Assembly: GCA_015655355.1 (NCBI GenBank)
Contig: JAATFG010000107.1
Span: 1-53,947 of the forward strand
Source of the DNA: Lysobacterales bacterium
Lineage (GTDB): Bacteria; Pseudomonadota; Gammaproteobacteria; Xanthomonadales; Xanthomonadaceae
Direction of reading: 5' to 3'
DNA length: 53,947 nt
Positions 4,237-16,989 of the stretch are shown one piece after another; position 1 is the first letter of the stretch; each line of letters opens with the position of its first letter. The position numbers and the translations under genes are program-made. The notes beneath the pieces are model-generated. The model did no database searches and was not told the DNA's origin. It was given only the letters and a program-made list of their open reading frames with translations.

Positions 4237-5210
4237 GCCGAAATCTCCGTGAAGAAATCCGCCGGCGGGATCGACGCCAATTCGTCGAAGCCGAACGCGA
4301 GGTTGAGGTTCTGCATCGCCTGCGTCGCCGCGCCTTTCAGCAGGTTGTCGAGCGTGGACACGACCACGGCGCGCTTGCCGCCCGGCGCGACGGTGAAACC
4401 GCCGATCTCGACGCCATGCTTGTGCGCGATGCGGCTGACCCATGGCGCATCGTCGCTGATGCGGATCAGCGGTTCGCTCGCGTAACGCTGGCGGTACAGC
4501 GCGCGCAAATCACCGACTTTCACCGGCTGTTGCAGCCAGATGTTCACCGTCATCGTGATGCCGCGGAACCACGGCGCGACGTGCGGCATGAATTCGACCG
4601 GCACGCCGAGCTGGCGCGACACTTCGCGCTCGTGCATGTGGTCGGCCAGCGAATACGGCATCAGGTTGTCGTGCAGCAGCGCCGGATTGTTGCGGTCCGA
4701 CGGCGTGGTGCCGGCGCCGGAATAGCCGCTGACGCCGAAGCACTGCGGCGGGCCGGCGAGCTGGCCCAGTAGCGGCGAAATCGCCAGTTGCATCGCGGTC
4801 GCGTAACAACCCGGATTACCGATGCGCTTCTGGCCGTCGTAGTTGTCGCGGGTCAGTTCCGGCAAGCCGTAGAACCACGCATCGTCGAAGCGGTAATCCG
4901 CGGACAAATCGACGACGACGGGATTCGCTTTCGCCGCGTCGATCGCGGCGACGTACTCGCCGGCCTTGCCGTTCGGCAACGCGAGCACGACCGCATCGAC
5001 GTCCTTTTGCGCTGCCGCTTCCGGCGACAGGTTTTCGTAGCGCAATTCGCCACCGCAAGCGACGTTGTGGTCGGCGACCGGATGGCCGTCGAGCTCGCGC
5101 GAGGACACGAAGCCCAGCTCGAATTGCGGGTGGTCGGCAATCAGGCGGATCAGCTCGCTGCCGGTATGGCCGCGCGCGCCGACGATGCCGATGGTTTTCT
5201 TGTCGCTCAT
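4233..5210 (-). CDS. argC: N-acetyl-gamma-glutamyl-phosphate reductase
   Basis: NADPH-dependent reduction of N-acetylglutamyl phosphate to the semialdehyde, third step of arginine synthesis. It has 325 residues. The Rossmann motif [14 protein letters not shown] lies at 7-20 and the active-site cysteine is C135 in [19 protein letters not shown] is the substrate region. ATG at 5210 overlaps the stop of the acetyltransferase gene by four bases, and the gene overlaps argH by four bases, so the whole middle of the operon is translationally coupled. Confidence 0.97.
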
Positions 5211-5833
5211 GCGTTTGCCTCGTGCGAATGCAGTTTGCGCAGCAGGCCAAGTTTCACTTCCGGCCATTCGCCGCGCAGGATCGAGAAGGAATGCGTATCG
5301 CGCAGGCTGCCGTCGCGGTGGCGCATGTTCGCGCGCAGGACGCCATCGCGCCTTGCGCCAAGGCGCAGGATCGCCTGCTGCGAACGCAGGTTCTCGTGGC
5401 TGGTTTCCAGGGCGACGGACTCGCAGCCCAGCCTCTCGAACGCATGGTTCAGCAGCAGCAACTTGGCCTCGGTATTCAGGCCGGTGCGCTGCACGCGCCG
5501 CGCATACCAGGTGTAGCCGACGCACAGGCGCGGCACGGCGGCGTCGATGCTGTAGAACCGCGTGCTGCCGACGACGGCGCCATCGGCATCGAACACCGCG
5601 AACGGCAGCGCCGTTCCCGCCGTGCGCAGCGCCAGCGCGGTGTCGATGTAGCGCTCCGCTTCGCCGGGCTGCGGGCCGGGCACGCTGGTGTACCGCAGCG
5701 CCCACAACTCGCCGTCGGCCGCCGCCGCGCGCAGGCCATCCGCATGCTCCGGGGCGAGTGGCGCCAGCACGACGTGCCTGCCGCGCAACACCGGCACGGT
5801 CTTCCACGGCATCGACGATGGCGTCGCACTCAT
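5207..5833 (-). CDS. GNAT-family (RimJ/RimL-like) acetyltransferase in the arginine operon
   Basis: A 208-residue GNAT protein of the RimJ/RimL type. It starts with [20 protein letters not shown] and has the late motif [20 protein letters not shown] typical of N-terminal or small-substrate acetyltransferases. It sits between argB/A and argC, one base after the argB stop and overlapping argC by four bases, so it is co-expressed with the pathway. The known acetyl steps are already covered by the fused synthase domain of ArgB/A. Its substrate is therefore unknown: it could acetylate a protein, an amino acid or a pathway intermediate. An equivalent gene occurs in Xanthomonas arginine clusters. 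Confidence 0.85.
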
Positions 5834-5834
5834 C

Positions 5835-7160
5835 TCACTCCACCCAGCTCGCCGGACGCGTCGCGGTGTGTTGCGCGCAGCGGGCGATGTCGTTGAAATC
5901 CCTGATGCCGAACCAGAACAGCTTCCACTTTTCCTGCTTGTAGCAGCCGTCGGATTCGCTGTAATAGAAAATGTTGACCTGGTTGTTGTGGCGCGAACGC
6001 CAGAACATCTGCGGATTCTCCTCGCGCGCGACGTGCCACACCGCGCGTCCCAGGCCTTCGCCTTGCGCCTCGTCGAGCACCGCGAACTTGTCGAGATAAG
6101 CGAAACCTTCCTCGTGGGTGAGGATCATCGCCGCGCGATAGGTCTCGCTGACGTAGACGCGGAACGGCCTGGTCTTCTCGAAATAATCCGGCACCAGCTT
6201 GCGACCGAAGCTGGATTCGACCAGCGTTTTCATGCGTTCGAGGTCGATGCCGTCCCACGAATCGGCGAAGCGCAGCACCTTCTCGCCGCGCTTGACCAGC
6301 GTGCCGCTGCCCTTGTGGGTGAACAATTCCTTCGCCAATTCCGACGGCTTGGTGATCGACACCGACGAAGCCTGCGGCAAGGCATCGAGCAATTCCTTGA
6401 TCTGCCCGATCTTGACGCGCATGCCGCCGTTGATCCACGGCGCATGTTGCAGCTCGTCGTATTCGGTGCTGAGGTTGATCGAATCGATCAGCTTGCCGTT
6501 CTGGTCGAGCAGACCACCGGTGCCGGTGAGGAACACGATCTTGTACGGCTGCAAGGTCTTGACCAGTTCGTTCGCGGCCCAATCGGCGTTGACGTTTAGG
6601 TACTGGCCACCGGGGGTGATGCCGAGCGAGGCGATCACCGGGATCGCGCCGATGCCGATCGCCGTGTCGATGCCGTGCGTATCGACCTGGGTGACCTTGC
6701 CGACCAGCCCGTATTTTTCGCGATCGAGGAACCGCGCCTCGAACACGCCGCTGGTGATCGACGTCGCGTGCACGCCGGCCTTGTGCAGCTCGGACACGAG
6801 GCGCAGGTTTTCGCCCTGCATCACCTTGCGCACGATCGCCAGCGCCGCGTCGCCGGTGACGCGCAGGCCGTCGACGGTCTGCTTCTCGATGCCGGCGGCG
6901 GAAAGTTCCTCGTCCAGCTGCGGGCCGGCGCCATGCACGACGATCGGGGTCAAGCCGACCTGCTGCAGGAACGCCAGCGAATCGACCAAGGCCTGCATGT
7001 CGTCGCGCAGGATCGCGCCGCCGACTTTCACCACCGCGAAGCGCTTGGTGTCCAGCTCGGCGTAGCGCTTGAGGTACTGGTCGATTTCCTTCGCGCTGCC
7101 GATGTTGGTCAGCAGCTTGACGATGGTTTGCCGGGTCTGTTTGTTGGCCTGGATGTTCAT
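5835..7160 (-). CDS. argB: Bifunctional N-acetylglutamate kinase / N-acetylglutamate synthase
   Basis: A 441-residue fusion carrying steps 1 and 2 of arginine synthesis. The N-terminal amino-acid-kinase domain (about 35-290) has [10 protein letters not shown] at 41-50 and [10 protein letters not shown]. The C-terminal GNAT domain (about 295-441) has [17 protein letters not shown] and [20 protein letters not shown], matching vertebrate-like NAGS. This arrangement is the known bacterial NAGS/K of Xanthomonas, where activity is inhibited by arginine. No separate argA or argJ is seen in the window. ATG at 7160 lies nine bases after the argE' stop. Confidence 0.95.
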
Positions 7161-9510: not shown

Positions 9511-10530
9511 TTACTGTCTTGCGAGCGCGGCCATGATCGCCTTCTGCACGTGCAGGCGGTTTTCGGCCTCGTCGATGGCGATGCATTGCGGCGAATCCAT
9601 CACCGCGTCGCTGGCCTTGACGTTGCGGCGCAGCGGCAGGCAGTGCGAGAACACGCCGTTGTTGGTCAGCGCCATTTTTTGCCCGTCGACCATGAAATGC
9701 TTGTACTGGTCGCGAATGGGCTTCTCCGGCTCCCAGTTGCCGAAGTACGGCAGCGCCCCCCAGCTCTTGGCGTAGACGACATCGGCACCGGCATACGCAC
9801 TTTCAATGTCGTGGCTGATGGCGAAGCTGCCGCCGCTTTCGGCGACGTTGTCCTTGGCCCAGCCGAGGTAGCGCTCGTCGAGGATGTAATCCGGGGTCGG
9901 ACACAAAAGCGTCACGTCCATGCCCATGCGCGTGGCGATGGTCAGCGCGGAATTGGCGACGGCGGTGTTCAGCGGCTTCGGGTGGTAGGTCCAGGTCAGC
10001 ACGTACTTCTTGCCGCGCAGGTCGGTGGTGCAGAAGTGTTCCTGCAAGGCCAGCACGTGGGCCAGCTCCTGGCATGGATGGGTGATCGTCTCCATGTTGA
10101 TCACCGGCACCGGCGAATACCTGGCGAAGCTCTTGAGCACCACGTCCTCGCGGTCATGTTGCCAATCGACGAATTTCGGGAACGCACGCACCCCGATCAG
10201 ATCGACGTAGCGGCCGAGCACCTTCGCCACTTCGGCGATGTGCTCCTCGGTGTCGCCGTCCATCACCGTGCCGAGCTGGAACTCGATCGGCCACGCGTCC
10301 TTGCCCGGCTGCAGCACCACCGCGTGGCCGCCGAGCTGGAACGCGCCCAACTCGAAGCTGGTGCGGGTGCGCATCGACGGGTTGAAGAACACCAGCGCGA
10401 TCGACTTGCCCTTCAGCGCGTCGCCAAGCTTGTCCTGCTTGTAGCGGTGCGCCTGCGCCAGCAGCGCGTCGAGCTCGGCGCGGCTCCAGTCCTGGGTATT
10501 GAGGAAGTGCTTGATGGAAGCGGGCTGCAT
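9511..10530 (-). CDS. argF': N-acetyl-L-ornithine carbamoyltransferase
   Basis: Transfers the carbamoyl group to N-acetylornithine, giving N-acetylcitrulline. It has 339 residues. The carbamoyl-phosphate motif [16 protein letters not shown] is at 49-64. Two residues that separate this enzyme from ordinary ornithine carbamoyltransferase match the Xanthomonas enzyme after a three-residue offset: E95 (Xanthomonas E92, in DGDTEEHI) and K305 (Xanthomonas carboxylated K302, in RRNVKASD). The frame is open upstream, but ATG at 10530 with AAGGA ten bases before it gives the family N-terminus. It is the first structural gene of the operon, behind a putative attenuator. Confidence 0.97.
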
Positions 10531-10585
10531 GGATCGGGATTCCTTGGTCGAGGTTCTTGCAGACGAAACTTTACAGGCGGGAAAA

Positions 10586-10614
10586 ACGAAAAAACCCGGC
10601 GTTGGGGCCGGGTT
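10586..10614 (-). terminator. Intrinsic terminator before argF', probable attenuator
   Basis: On the minus strand AACCCGGC and GCCGGGTT form an 8-bp stem around loop CCCAAC, followed by T6, CG and T5. It lies 62 bases before the argF' ATG and 25 bases after the stop of a short Arg-rich ORF. The end of that ORF carries GCCGGGT (10642-10648), the same sequence as the 3' arm of the hairpin, so it can pair with the 5' arm and block termination. The hairpin itself is certain; its role as attenuator is inferred. It would also stop readthrough from the exported-protein gene at 10783. Confidence 0.85.
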
Positions 10615-10639
10615 CGTTGCAGGCAGCACACGGCTTCCG

Positions 10640-10735
10640 TCACCCGGCGAATTGACGCGGTTCCGGTCGACGCGCACGCGAGGTCATGGCGGTGGCCATC
10701 TGCGCGCTGCTGGAAAAGGCGTGGGTCTGCTTCAT
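10640..10735 (-). CDS. Putative arginine leader peptide upstream of argF'
   Basis: A short ORF of 31 codons from ATG at 10735, with in-frame internal ATGs at 10699 and 10687. The shortest version is MTSRARRPEPRQFAG. Four of its 15 codons are Arg (CGT, CGT, CGA, CGT), unlike the CGC preferred in neighbouring genes; two are adjacent. The last codons GCC GGG TGA overlap a segment that can pair with the terminator's 5' arm. A ribosome stalled at the Arg codons would leave this segment free; a ribosome at the stop would cover it. No Shine-Dalgarno is seen; the first ATG could coincide with the transcription start. Translation is unproven, and Arg-rich short frames are common at this GC content. 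Confidence 0.5.
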   Translation of the reverse strand: MKQTHAFSSSAQMATAMTSRARRPEPRQFAG

Positions 10736-10742
10736 GCGCGCA

Positions 10743-10771
10743 ATGGTCGCATGGCGACGCGGGCCGCGCAA
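10743..10771 (-). promoter_or_regulatory. Candidate promoter of the arginine leader/operon
   Basis: On the minus strand TTGCGC (10771-10766), 17 bp, GACCAT (10748-10743). Each box matches three of six consensus bases, so this is a weak candidate chosen for spacing and position. A start seven bases downstream would fall on the A of the ATG at 10735. Confidence 0.35.
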
Positions 10772-10782
10772 GGATGCGGCGC

Positions 10783-11367
10783 TCAGTCGTGCGGGTCCAG
10801 CGCCTGCGAATCGACGCCGTAGGGCGCCACGGTCAGGCGGATGCGCAGGCGGTTGCCCGGGTCCTGCGGCAGTCGCGCGCGGAACTTCATGCCACGGTAG
10901 ACGTAATCGACGTCATAGGCGGTCGGCGTGCTCAATTGCACGTCCCGCGGCACGCTGCGGCAGCGCTTCGGCCCCTCCGCCTTGGCCTCGGCGGCATGGG
11001 AATCCAGCGTGGTTTCGGCATGGTCTTCGCCGCCGCCGAACCAGCCCTTGATGTCGCCCCACCACTTCGCCACGTGGCCCTGCCCGGCACCGGCCTGCGT
11101 CTTGGCCGGCTTGGCCGGCGTCTGCTGCGCGTCGTCGCAGACCACTTCGCTGCGCCTCGCGTTGACCGTCTCGTAGACCGGATTGACGTTGAGCACCTGC
11201 GCGTATTCGACGCGCACGTTTTCGGCCTGCTGCGCCGCCTGCGCGTCGGCCGCTTCCTTTTCCCTGGCCGCATCCTTGTCGCGATTGGCCGCAAGGCCCG
11301 GCATCGACCACGCCACCGTGACGGCGAGCAGGCAGGCGCTGAGCAGGATGCGGCGGGAAGCAGGCAT
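10783..11367 (-). CDS. Exported protein resembling 17 kDa surface-antigen family without its glycine zipper
   Basis: 194 residues with a signal peptide (RRILLSACLLAVTVAW, cleavage after about A27). An early stretch VRVEYAQVLNVNPVYETV and a C-terminal stretch AYDVDYVYRGMKFRARLPQD followed by Arg/Val strands match the two ends of periplasmic/outer-membrane proteins related to the rickettsial 17 kDa antigen. The glycine-zipper membrane segment usually found between them is missing. A Gln/Lys/Ala-rich linker with WWGDIKGWFGGG takes its place. Two cysteines (in VVCDD and KRCRS) flank the linker. ATG at 11367 is chosen for the signal peptide. Function unknown. Confidence 0.75.
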   Translation of the reverse strand: MPASRRILLSACLLAVTVAWSMPGLAANRDKDAAREKEAADAQAAQQAENVRVEYAQVLNVNPVYETVNARRSEVVCDDAQQTPAKPAKTQAGAGQGHVAKWWGDIKGWFGGGEDHAETTLDSHAAEAKAEGPKRCRSVPRDVQLSTPTAYDVDYVYRGMKFRARLPQDPGNRLRIRLTVAPYGVDSQALDPHD

Positions 11368-15369: not shown

Positions 15370-16881
15370 ATGCACCACGTCACCGCCAAACTCGCCGCGC
15401 TGCGCGCGCATCAGGGCACGCGCCTGACCCACGGTCTCGACGACGCGACGATCGGGAAATTCGCCGCGACGCATCCGGCGCTGGGCGAAGCCATCGATGC
15501 GGCCGCCGCCGAATACGCACGCATCCAGCAAGAGTTCGCCGATCTGCTCGACCTCGACGAAGCCGAGCAAATGCACCGCGTGCAGTCCGGCTACGTCAAC
15601 TTCTACGCCGACGACGCCGTGCAGCCCTACGTCGCGCTGGCCGCGCAAGGGCCGTGGATCGTCACCCTGAAAGGCGCGGTGCTGTACGACGCCGGCGGCT
15701 ACGGCATGGTCGGTTTCGGCCACAACCCCCGGCACGTGATGGAGGCGCTCGCCAAGCCGCAGGCGATGGCCAACATCATGACGCCTTCACTGGCGCAACT
15801 GCGCTTCGACGCGGCGCTGCGCAAGGAGATCGGCCACGCCCGCGGCGGCGCCGACAAGGGCGGCCCATACGCGAAGTTCATGTGCCTCAATTCCGGTTCC
15901 GAAGCCGTGGGCCTGGCCGCACGCATCGTCGACATCAACGCCAAGCTGATGACCGACCCCGGCGCGAAGCACGCCGGCAAGCCGATCAAGCGCGTGGTGG
16001 TGAAAGGCAGCTTCCATGGCCGCACCGAGCGCCCGGCGCTGTATTCGGATTCGACCCGCAAGACCTACCAGCAGCACCTCGCCTCGTACCGCGATGAAGA
16101 TGCGCACATCGCGATCGCTCCCTACGACGTCGAGGCATTGGAAAAAGCCTTCGCCGACGCGGAAACGCACGGTTTCTTCATCGAAGCGATCTTCCTCGAA
16201 CCGGTGATGGGCGAAGGCGACCCGGGCCGCAGGCTGCCGGCGGACTTCTACGCCGCCGCGCGCGAACTGACCCGCGCACACGGCAGCCTGCTGCTGGTCG
16301 ATTCGATCCAGGCCGGCCTGCGCGCGACCGGTACCTTGAGCTTCATCGATTATCCCGGCCACGAGCGGCTCGAAGCGCCGGACATGGAGACGTTCTCCAA
16401 GGCGCTGAACGCCGCCCAATTCCCGCTGTCGGTGCTGGCGCTGAGCGCGGAAACCGCGGCGCTGTACCGCAAGGGCGTGTACGGCAACACGATGACCGCC
16501 AACCCGCGCGCGCTCGACGTCGCCGTCGCCACGCTGCAATCGCTGACGCCGCAACTGCGCGCGAACATTTGCAAGCAGGGCGACGCGGCCATCGCCAGGC
16601 TGGAGAAGCTGAAGAACGAACTGCCCGGCCTGATCACCAGGGTGCAAGGCACCGGCCTGCTGTTCTCGTGCGAGCTGGCGCCGCAATTCAAGTGTTACGG
16701 CGCCGATTCGACCGAGGAATGGCTGCGCATGCACGGCATCAACGTCATCCATGGCGGCGAGAACTCGCTGCGCTTCACCACGCATTTCGCGATGGACGAC
16801 GCGGAGCTGGACCTGCTCGTCGCGATGGTCGGCCGCGCGCTGCGCGAAGGCCCGCGCAAACGCGAAGCGCAGGCGGCGTGA
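15370..16881 (+). CDS. Class III PLP-dependent aminotransferase
   Basis: 503 residues, fold type I. Seen are the phosphate-binding NSGSEA (174-179), SFHGRT (214-219), the PLP-ring Asp in LLVDSIQAGLR (D311) and the PLP lysine K344 in METFSKALN. It has an N-terminal extension of about 70 residues compared with acetylornithine aminotransferase. The usual class III GGG after the lysine reads NAAQ, which is unusual. The substrate is not evident: a lysine, ornithine or other omega-amine donor is possible. Control by the divergent Lrp-type regulator suggests amino-acid catabolism. It is followed by a terminator. Confidence 0.85.
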   Translation: MHHVTAKLAALRAHQGTRLTHGLDDATIGKFAATHPALGEAIDAAAAEYARIQQEFADLLDLDEAEQMHRVQSGYVNFYADDAVQPYVALAAQGPWIVTLKGAVLYDAGGYGMVGFGHNPRHVMEALAKPQAMANIMTPSLAQLRFDAALRKEIGHARGGADKGGPYAKFMCLNSGSEAVGLAARIVDINAKLMTDPGAKHAGKPIKRVVVKGSFHGRTERPALYSDSTRKTYQQHLASYRDEDAHIAIAPYDVEALEKAFADAETHGFFIEAIFLEPVMGEGDPGRRLPADFYAAARELTRAHGSLLLVDSIQAGLRATGTLSFIDYPGHERLEAPDMETFSKALNAAQFPLSVLALSAETAALYRKGVYGNTMTANPRALDVAVATLQSLTPQLRANICKQGDAAIARLEKLKNELPGLITRVQGTGLLFSCELAPQFKCYGADSTEEWLRMHGINVIHGGENSLRFTTHFAMDDAELDLLVAMVGRALREGPRKREAQAA

Positions 16882-16896
16882 AATCCGCCGCATGAC

Positions 16897-16925
16897 GAAA
16901 AGCCCGGCATATGCCGGGTTTTTTC
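16897..16925 (+). terminator. Intrinsic terminator after the aminotransferase gene
   Basis: CCCGGCAT / ATGCCGGG with no unpaired loop bases in the strict stem (so the top pairs open), followed by T6 and CGTTT. It lies 21 bases after the stop codon. Confidence 0.85.
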
Positions 16926-16989
16926 GTTTCCGCCCGCGGCACGCCATGACACAATCGGCAGCGAACGCCGCATACCGGGAACTACCTGC

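Follow-up and report, generated by a model that had tools for sequence, protein, structure and literature searches.

A putative arginine attenuator with a conserved leader peptide upstream of argF′ in Xanthomonadaceae and other families of the order

Introduction

The region upstream of argF′ in the bacterium studied here raises the question of whether a short ORF with several Arg codons, followed by an intrinsic terminator, allows the supply of arginine to set the expression of the arginine and proline genes that lie behind it. The region is part of a 53,947-nucleotide stretch of DNA (contig JAATFG010000107.1, assembly GCA_015655355.1), which we call the window. In the his/trp-type attenuators of proteobacteria, a leader ORF rich in codons for the product of the pathway is combined with mutually exclusive hairpins (1:2, 2:3, and 3:4) and a terminator before the first gene. 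An initial annotation of the locus had proposed that the same logic is applied here to arginine, and our sequence tests of conservation, spacing, and pairing largely support that proposal. On these grounds we consider it very likely that the region is a ribosome-mediated transcription attenuator that would sense charged arginyl-tRNA before argF′-argG-argE-argB-argC-argH-proBA.

Results and discussion

Anatomy of the region upstream of argF′

The following features, all on the minus strand of the window, make up the putative device and the genes that it would control.

10743–10771: promoter-like motif, with TTGCGC at 10771–10766, a 17-nt spacer with TGC at its end, and GACCAT at 10748–10743
10640–10735: leader ORF of 31 amino acids, MKQTHAFSSSAQMATAMTSRARRPEPRQFAG, with its ATG at 10735 and its TGA at 10642–10640
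10667–10678: control codons R-A-R-R (CGT GCG CGT CGA), with the CGA at 10669–10667
10656–10666: segment 1, the 5′ arm of the 1:2 hairpin, CCGGAACCGCG
10642–10648: segment 2, GCCGGGT, the 5′ half of the candidate antiterminator, overlapping the leader stop codon
10607–10613: segment 3, ACCCGGC, common to the antiterminator (2:3) and the terminator (3:4)
10589–10600: segment 4, GCCGGG plus the T run, the 3′ half of the intrinsic terminator
10615–10592: intrinsic terminator, GAACCCGGC-CCCAAC-GCCGGGTTT-TTTCG, 62 nt 5′ of the argF′ ATG (10530)
9511–10530: argF′ (N-acetylornithine carbamoyltransferase; NCBIfam NF003384, E 3.2e-190, and Pfam), the first gene under putative control
down to 532: same-strand genes argG, argE, argB (with a fused NAT domain), a GNAT acetyltransferase ORF, argC, argH, proB, and proA (NCBIfam, Pfam)

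These coordinates bear out the terminator placed 62 bases before argF′ by the initial annotation, as well as its estimate of about 25 bases between the leader stop codon and the terminator, which we measured as 24 nt to the stem. Also confirmed was its claim that GCCGGGT (10648–10642), made up of the last two sense codons of the leader plus the T of its stop codon, repeats the letters of the terminator's 3′ arm and can form 7 bp with ACCCGGC (10613–10607), the 5′ arm. The antiterminator (2:3) and the terminator (3:4) exclude each other through their common segment 3.

Taken in isolation, several of these elements are unremarkable. The terminator carries modest weight by itself, since a scan for terminators found two overlapping sites where shuffles gave 0.7 ± 1.1; the folding z score of the window's leader RNA is only −1.18; and a run of eight codons with three for Arg is nothing unusual in GC-rich sequence (shuffle P of 0.13–0.44 in family f12, one of the twelve families, f1 to f12, referred to below). 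Chance is excluded because the ORF, the Arg codons, the switch segment, the terminator, and the promoter-like motif all recur in 80 relatives.

The leader peptide is conserved beyond its Arg codons

The 80 relatives, found by searching public genome contigs for argF′, are the 80 best among at least 579, with argF′ and not the leader as the basis of the choice; with the window they give 81 loci of the window's own family (f1). An in-frame leader containing TSRARRP was present in 80/80 relatives and in the window, starting with ATG at 76 loci and with GTG at five, and the Met that precedes TSRARRP was replaced by Ile in a single locus (L065). The last 15 residues of the window's leader, MTSRARRPEPRQFAG, do contain the four Arg codons counted in the initial annotation (CGT, CGT, CGA, and CGT), but conservation does not extend to the fourth, the CGT in PRQFAG. 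The conserved Arg residues are the three of RARR, which are found at 81/81 loci and provide the enrichment in Arg codons that a his/trp-type attenuator requires. The leader peptide had no match in Pfam or NCBIfam up to an E value of 1.

Synonymous variation was found at five of the seven TSRARRP codons. Over the 81 loci, Thr was encoded by ACC (54), ACG (22), or ACT (5), Ser by TCG (77), TCT (3), or TCC (1), the first Arg by CGT (56) or CGC (25), Ala by GCC (41), GCG (38), or GCT (2), and the second Arg by CGC (58) or CGT (23), whereas the third Arg was always CGA and the Pro always CCG. At these loci, the argF′ genes use CGA for 8 of their 1320 Arg codons, as compared with 81/81 at the third Arg of the leader, and this leader CGA (10669–10667 in the window) is the presumed key stall codon. 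CGT, CGC, and CGA are all decoded by one tRNA, with anticodon ICG, so the leader would report on a single isoacceptor.

The pN/pS ratio of the MTSRARRP core was 0.021 within the family, as against 0.43 for the six preceding codons; argF′ windows of 40 codons were out of register (pN 0.54) and gave no coding yardstick for these ratios. Across 105 sequences from four families (81 from f1, 3 from f2, 7 from f3, and 14 from f12), TSRARR had zero replacement changes at a pS of 0.42. The anchor in our script itself encodes TSRARR; all regions examined in these four families matched it and none was dropped. The low pN/pS together with the invariant codons points to selection on the peptide itself, with an additional constraint at the codon or RNA level on CGACCG. 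The ORF is probably translated from a nearly leaderless mRNA. Its strong purifying selection also counts against the idea that the terminator belongs to the upstream gene and the ORF is fortuitous: a same-strand ORF upstream of the promoter-like motif does end nearby, at 10783, but in the window that motif sits between the upstream gene and the terminator, and we regard this explanation as hardly credible.

Conservation of the M, T, S, and A residues exceeds what codon counting needs. It could reflect an arrest peptide, in which free arginine, ornithine, or some other metabolite, and not codon starvation, would be the signal on which nascent MTSRARR halts the ribosome, as SpeFL and TnaC do. 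The absence of change in TSRARR across the four families is what such a peptide would predict, and the conserved residues would be those nearest the peptidyl-transferase center when the A site holds CGA or the codon after it. However, arrest at Arg/Pro by excess arginine would be expected to turn the genes on, the wrong sense for a biosynthetic operon, and the spacing within the leader and the peptides of other families, described below, argue in the same direction; we judge arrest as the sole mechanism to be improbable.

One leader departs from this pattern. In the small genome G177 of the same family, the leader (L193) is degenerate: it retains TSRARR, its third Arg codon is CGG followed by ATG, the ORF extends beyond the usual stop codon, and the terminator stem is altered.

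The presumed control codon lies at a nearly constant distance from the switch segment

In the window, 21 nt separate the start of the CGA codon from that of segment 2. The same distance was found at 68 of the 81 family loci, the others having 18 nt (one locus), 20 nt (11), or 22 nt (one). The stop codon is less constrained, starting 27 nt (65 loci), 24 nt (one), or 18 nt (15) past the start of the CGA. The distance from RARRP to the stop codon therefore shifts by up to 9 nt, which makes a stop-codon arrest peptide, with its fixed distance, unlikely. In f2, f3, and f12, the spacing from CGA to segment 2 was 16–24 nt in 23 of 24 regions; in the remaining one (L179) the script misplaced segment 2, and the spacing read by eye was 20. 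These values were computed from the core because several f12 rows of the first table were out of frame.

Given the usual footprint of a ribosome, one at the stop codon would cover segment 2 in each of the three stop classes, and one with CGA in its A site would end short of segment 2 and cover segment 1. The control codon thus appears to be placed such that a stalled ribosome would mask segment 1 and leave segment 2 free. Invariance of the distance from Arg codon to segment 2, and not of that from peptide to stop codon, fits an attenuator that responds to a starved codon and not a stop-codon arrest peptide.

Pairing in the terminator, antiterminator, and 1:2 hairpin

The terminator stem, CCC[AG]GC...GC[CT]GGG, was found at 81/81 family loci, counting L046, which has a C inside its T run. 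For the arms we used the 74 distinct family sequences (alignment A1). The 3:4 arms paired in 100% of cells, with two-sided changes in 12 cells, a number reached by 0 of 500 shuffles. The 2:3 arms paired in 97.9% of cells, as against at most 56% in slid controls, but their covariation score was matched by 466 of 500 shuffles, the weakness of which reflects the few variable positions in this family. Of the two stems in which the initial annotation had suggested looking for covariation, the 3:4 stem thus showed it and the 2:3 stem showed it weakly. The ORF with GC(C/T)GGG at its stop codon, whose absence from relatives would have spoken against that annotation, was retained in the relatives; one or two mismatches between the heptamers of segments 2 and 3 occurred in 7 of the 74 family sequences, 3/3 sequences of f2, and 6/7 of f3. 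Segments 2, 3, and 4 covary as a set, with C/G/C in the window and T/A/T in most of its family relatives; in f12, 13 of 14 sequences have C/G/C and the fourteenth, L173, has T/A/T.

A swap test used 59 sequences from ten families, eight of them from the 81 loci of f1. When a single sequence was drawn from each family, 2:3 pairing was better with the sequence's own partner than with swapped partners in 98.9% of derangements. The fraction of swapped partners that paired equally well was 6% in f8, 13% in f2, 17% in f12, 21% in f3, 40% in f1, 45–47% in f4, f9, and f10, 74% in f7, and 80% in f6. When compared with shuffled leaders, the 2:3 duplex ranked in the best 5% for 28 of the 59 sequences (3/3 in f4, 2/2 in f6, 7/9 in f7, 5/5 in f8, 4/7 in f9, 5/14 in f12, 2/8 in f1, 0/3 in f2, 0/7 in f3, and 0/1 in f10).

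The 1:2 arms paired in 92.2% of cells of the 74 sequences (at most 60% in slid controls), with modest covariation (4 of 500 shuffles scored as high), and in the predicted 1:2 fold at least four of the seven segment-2 bases were paired in 74/74 family sequences and 9/14 f12 sequences. The mean shuffle z score of this hairpin was −0.74 in the family and +0.54 in f12; because its stability is not markedly above that of shuffles, it is the weakest part of the device. Together with the 2:3 pairing in f2 and f3, the 1:2 hairpin appears to be where the case from pairing is weak. A hairpin that RNAalifold placed inside TCGCG...CGA was set aside and not used.

The device in other families, including some with different peptides

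From 126 genomes drawn outside the window's family, we obtained argF′ upstream regions of 60 genomes in eleven other families, and counted the device as present when a terminator was accompanied by a leader ORF in which three or more Arg codons fell within a stretch of eight. The Arg count uses the richest ORF within 190 nt, which in L134 and L135 is not the TSRARR ORF. By this definition the device was present in all regions of f2 (3/3), f3 (7/7), f4 (3/3), f6 (2/2), f7 (9/9), f8 (5/5), f10 (1/1), and f12 (14/14), in 7/8 of f9, and in neither f5 (0/1) nor f11 (0/7), for a total of 51 of the 53 regions from ArgR-less genomes of other families. The two others, L142 (f5) and L156 (f9), come from ArgR-less genomes that have, by the same definition, neither a terminator nor an Arg-rich leader before argF′. 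A pattern search over the order was noisy, as was its reversed-pattern control, and was used only for hits just upstream of argF′.

The leaders of f1, f2, f3, and f12 are recognizably one peptide, for example SARMAAGMTSRARRP. In f4 and f6–f10 the peptides are different, with typical tails LRRRRRLSQRRAG, PRRRRVLQSTAG, and VVVRRRRPVKRMELFG, and 27 of the 28 regions nonetheless have a terminator and an Arg-rich ORF. Single-sequence shuffle tests of the Arg cluster were significant in most of the AT-rich and more divergent families (P of 0.005 in 5/5 regions of f8), not significant in f2 and f12, and mixed in f3. An Arg codon was found 16–23 nt before segment 2 in 3/3 regions of f4, 2/2 of f6, 7/8 of f7, 5/5 of f8, 4/5 of f9, and 1/1 of f10; this table covers 8 of the 9 f7 regions, 5 of the 8 f9 regions, and none from f3, and segment 2 was placed by hand in f7, f8, and f9. 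That six families differ in peptide yet keep Arg clusters at similar spacing is a further point against arrest by the peptide itself.

The automatic segment-2 finder returned nothing for L146, L153, L155, L157, L158, and L184, of which L153, L155, and L184 (all f8), as well as L146 and L158, were read by eye. In the three f8 regions, TCTTTGG or GCTCTTTGG can pair, by eye, with CCAAAGAGC, which comprises the loop and 3′ arm of the terminator, so the antiterminator there has apparently been rewired, with other letters and the same logic.

The device and ArgR are mutually exclusive in the sampled genomes

Among 151 genomes of the order, eight had ArgR (PF01316); these eight all belong to f11, and in each of them the match lay on the argF′ contig, within ~1.4 kb of the gene. 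The argF′ upstream region was examined in seven of the eight genomes, and none of the seven had a terminator. Searches with PF01316 gave no match in the window's genome, which is 94% complete and in this respect does not look like the host of an ArgR regulon, nor in any of 11 further genomes of its family. The device and ArgR therefore exclude each other within this sample. This is a clear instance of a protein regulator and an RNA device substituting for one another, with the device in 51/53 ArgR-less regions and at 81/81 family loci versus 0/7 regions with ArgR.

A leader model (R1) matched strongly (E ≤4.7e-12) in 56 of 60 family genomes, once in each, with the next-best match at 5.3e-7; one strong match per genome suggests that argF′ is the sole target of this form. 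When 15 of the 56 matches were compared with argF′ coordinates, 15/15 lay within 250 nt upstream of the gene. Of the four genomes with no strong match, one is G177, with its degenerate leader, and the other three (G155, G189, and G194) have no argF′ above the family cut-off, though their relatives carry argF′; these three are possibly arginine auxotrophs or cases of assembly gaps. R1 matches of 35 bits or less probably represent background, including one at 16825–16927 on the plus strand of the window (33 bits).

Promoter-like motif and correspondence with the Xoo5 RNA

At 81/81 family loci, a TTG-(17/18)-TGn-nAnnnT pattern ends 4–11 nt 5′ of the leader start codon (7 nt before the ATG in the window), with a spacer of 17 nt at 79 loci and 18 nt at two. 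The pattern, which was picked after viewing the loci, was absent from 4000 windows taken at random from argF′ coding sequence. A transcription start between the terminator and argF′ would be at odds with the proposal of the initial annotation, and our scan found no sigma-70-like site there; this is a weak test because the leader promoter, too, escaped the scan.

The Rfam family RF02242 (Xoo5) matched the window at 10734–10620 with 48.7 bits (E 1.9e-9), just under the gathering threshold of 50 bits, so the window falls formally outside the family. By position, coverage, and E value, the sequence of the window's leader is nevertheless homologous to Xoo5. Among 12 relatives, five matched with 89.7–146.9 bits, three with 36.5–48.2 bits, and four had no match at an E value of 0.001. 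At three Xanthomonas loci the match reached 143–147 bits, and here the model, which has 124 positions, begins 2 nt before the leader ATG and ends shortly before the terminator.

Xoo5 was described in Xanthomonas oryzae, from the same locus, as a small RNA of 124 nt, with a 5′ end from RACE and a cloned 3′ end; in cells grown in PSA medium, Northern blots gave bands of ~130 and ~100 nt in early growth and later only the short one (PMC3039613, partial text). If Rfam position 1 is equated with the RACE end, as the equal length of 124 suggests, then the Xanthomonas RNA would start 2 nt before the ATG, and the leaderless start that had been suggested for the window would be nearly, though not strictly, so. 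The terminated RNA expected in two Xanthomonas relatives is 158–159 nt. Xoo5 is shorter than this, which implies either trimming or a gap in our model. In PMC3039613, neither argF nor arginine nor leader appears as a word of the main text, and we found no function for Xoo5 in the text available.

A discrete RNA, detected by Northern blotting and 5′ RACE and filed by Rfam as an sRNA, might instead be the product of a trans-acting sRNA gene with its own terminator, argF′ being transcribed from a separate promoter. The window contains an element, AAGTTTC-N4-GCAAGAA (10554–10571, minus strand), between the terminator and argF′ that is possibly an operator or second promoter. It was found at one place only in the window's genome when at most one mismatch was allowed; a looser form was present at 48 of 81 family loci, and GTTTC-N7..9-GAA at 43 of 81. 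The element is absent, by pattern, from the other 33 loci, however, and several relatives have no more than ~13–50 nt (by eye) between the T run and the start of argF′, which leaves little room for a second promoter. Moreover, the selected feature is an ORF, with synonymous variation and a fixed frame, and its Arg codons recur in families whose sequences are otherwise different. Seven of the X. oryzae sRNAs, a group that may or may not include Xoo5, were deleted without obvious phenotype (PMC3039613). A trans-acting sRNA gene therefore strikes us as very unlikely.

A conserved leader RNA 5′ of an amino-acid operon could also be a riboswitch or a T-box, binding a metabolite or tRNA for arginine, and arginine T-boxes are listed for other groups (PMC1262725, partial text). 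Our Rfam search returned Xoo5 and another sRNA family (at an E value of 0.18) and no T-box or riboswitch family, and what is conserved is a set of codons and short arms, not an aptamer; we give this explanation almost no weight.

Proposed mechanism

The observed anatomy, conservation, geometry, complementarity, and distribution of the device, and the absence of ArgR, suggest the following scheme, within which we infer leader translation, stalling, and the response to arginine. Transcription would start at the leader ATG or ~2 nt before it, going by the conserved promoter-like motif and by the 5′ end that others measured on the X. oryzae homologue. When arginine is plentiful, the ribosome would pass CGT-GCG-CGT-CGA, reach the stop codon, and cover segment 2; the 3:4 terminator would then form and transcription would stop, with the terminated short leader RNA corresponding to Xoo5. 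When arginyl-tRNA is scarce, the ribosome would stall at the Arg codons, mainly at the rare CGA, which lies 21 nt ahead of segment 2, and would mask segment 1, so that segment 2 is free to pair with segment 3 and the polymerase could read into the arg–pro genes. Without translation of the leader, both 1:2 and 3:4 would form, again ending transcription.

The peptide may add to this scheme. In one large clade of this ArgR-poor order, MTSRARR might also assist the arrest and fix the stall at CGA-CCG, giving a hybrid of attenuator and arrest peptide whose terminated RNA circulates as the sRNA Xoo5; we put this forward tentatively, as a possibility that is less likely than not. With a CGA that is rare yet invariant and a peptide that is conserved, a hybrid sensor of codon and peptide can be tested directly, and if this reading is true, the order has largely given up ArgR for an arginyl-tRNA attenuator.

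Relation to known systems

The mechanism class is known: the leader ORF, the exclusive hairpins, and the intrinsic terminator follow the same plan as in his/trp-type attenuators. What sets the present case apart is the proposed specificity for arginine (and not His, Trp, Phe, Thr, Leu, or Ilv), the near-leaderless set-up, the small number of control codons (three that are conserved, one of them an invariant rare CGA), the conservation of the peptide beyond these codons, and the exchange with ArgR, the device being found where ArgR is missing. It would add arginine to the amino acids that are sensed by classical attenuation, offer a function for an orphan Rfam sRNA, and suggest how a large ArgR-less group of bacteria can regulate arginine synthesis. 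The fungal arginine attenuator peptide is likewise an upstream peptide that regulates a gene of the arginine pathway, through arginine-induced translation arrest; it differs in being a eukaryotic translation control with no terminator.

The nearest bacterial precedent that we found is the speF leader of Salmonella, in which ribosomes pause on consecutive Arg codons of orf34 (SpeFL) in low arginine and thereby refold the RNA (PMC6386406, partial text). Like the leader described here, it is an upstream ORF with Arg codons in which pausing alters RNA folding, but, according to the same text, its target is ornithine decarboxylase and it works via Rho, RNase G, and exposure of the ribosome-binding site, with no intrinsic terminator. 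The trpL attenuator of Sinorhizobium meliloti (rnTrpL, peTrpL) resembles our case in having a leaderless ORF and a terminated RNA that is seen as an sRNA, and differs in responding to tryptophan and in encoding a peptide described as functional (PMC10117765, partial text). In Pseudomonas aeruginosa, a leader peptide precedes carA, which supplies carbamoyl phosphate for arginine; there, however, gene and signal are different, with arginine acting transcriptionally and pyrimidines possibly by attenuation (PMC4997734, partial text).

Our search of the open-licence PMC literature found no attenuator of arginine biosynthesis, and one may be described in subscription papers. As far as their available text goes, a 2005 survey of actinobacteria reports no RNA element before arginine operons (PMC1262725), and a survey of proteobacterial regulons handles arginine through ArgR (PMC5343134). 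The word arginine is absent from the main text of a survey of premature terminators (PMC2965389).

Further features of the gene cluster

The reading frame of argF′ is open upstream of its ATG, across the terminator, up to a GTG at 10677, which would give a protein of 388 amino acids. The ATG at 10530 is the likely start, and the longer GTG frame is likely an annotation trap. At 5207–7160 of the window (minus strand), within the arginine cluster, the GNAT acetyltransferase ORF adjoins argB, whose fused NAT domain corresponds to PF04768; the GNAT ORF matches PF13302 (E 5.6e-20) and gave no match in an NCBIfam search at 1e-20.
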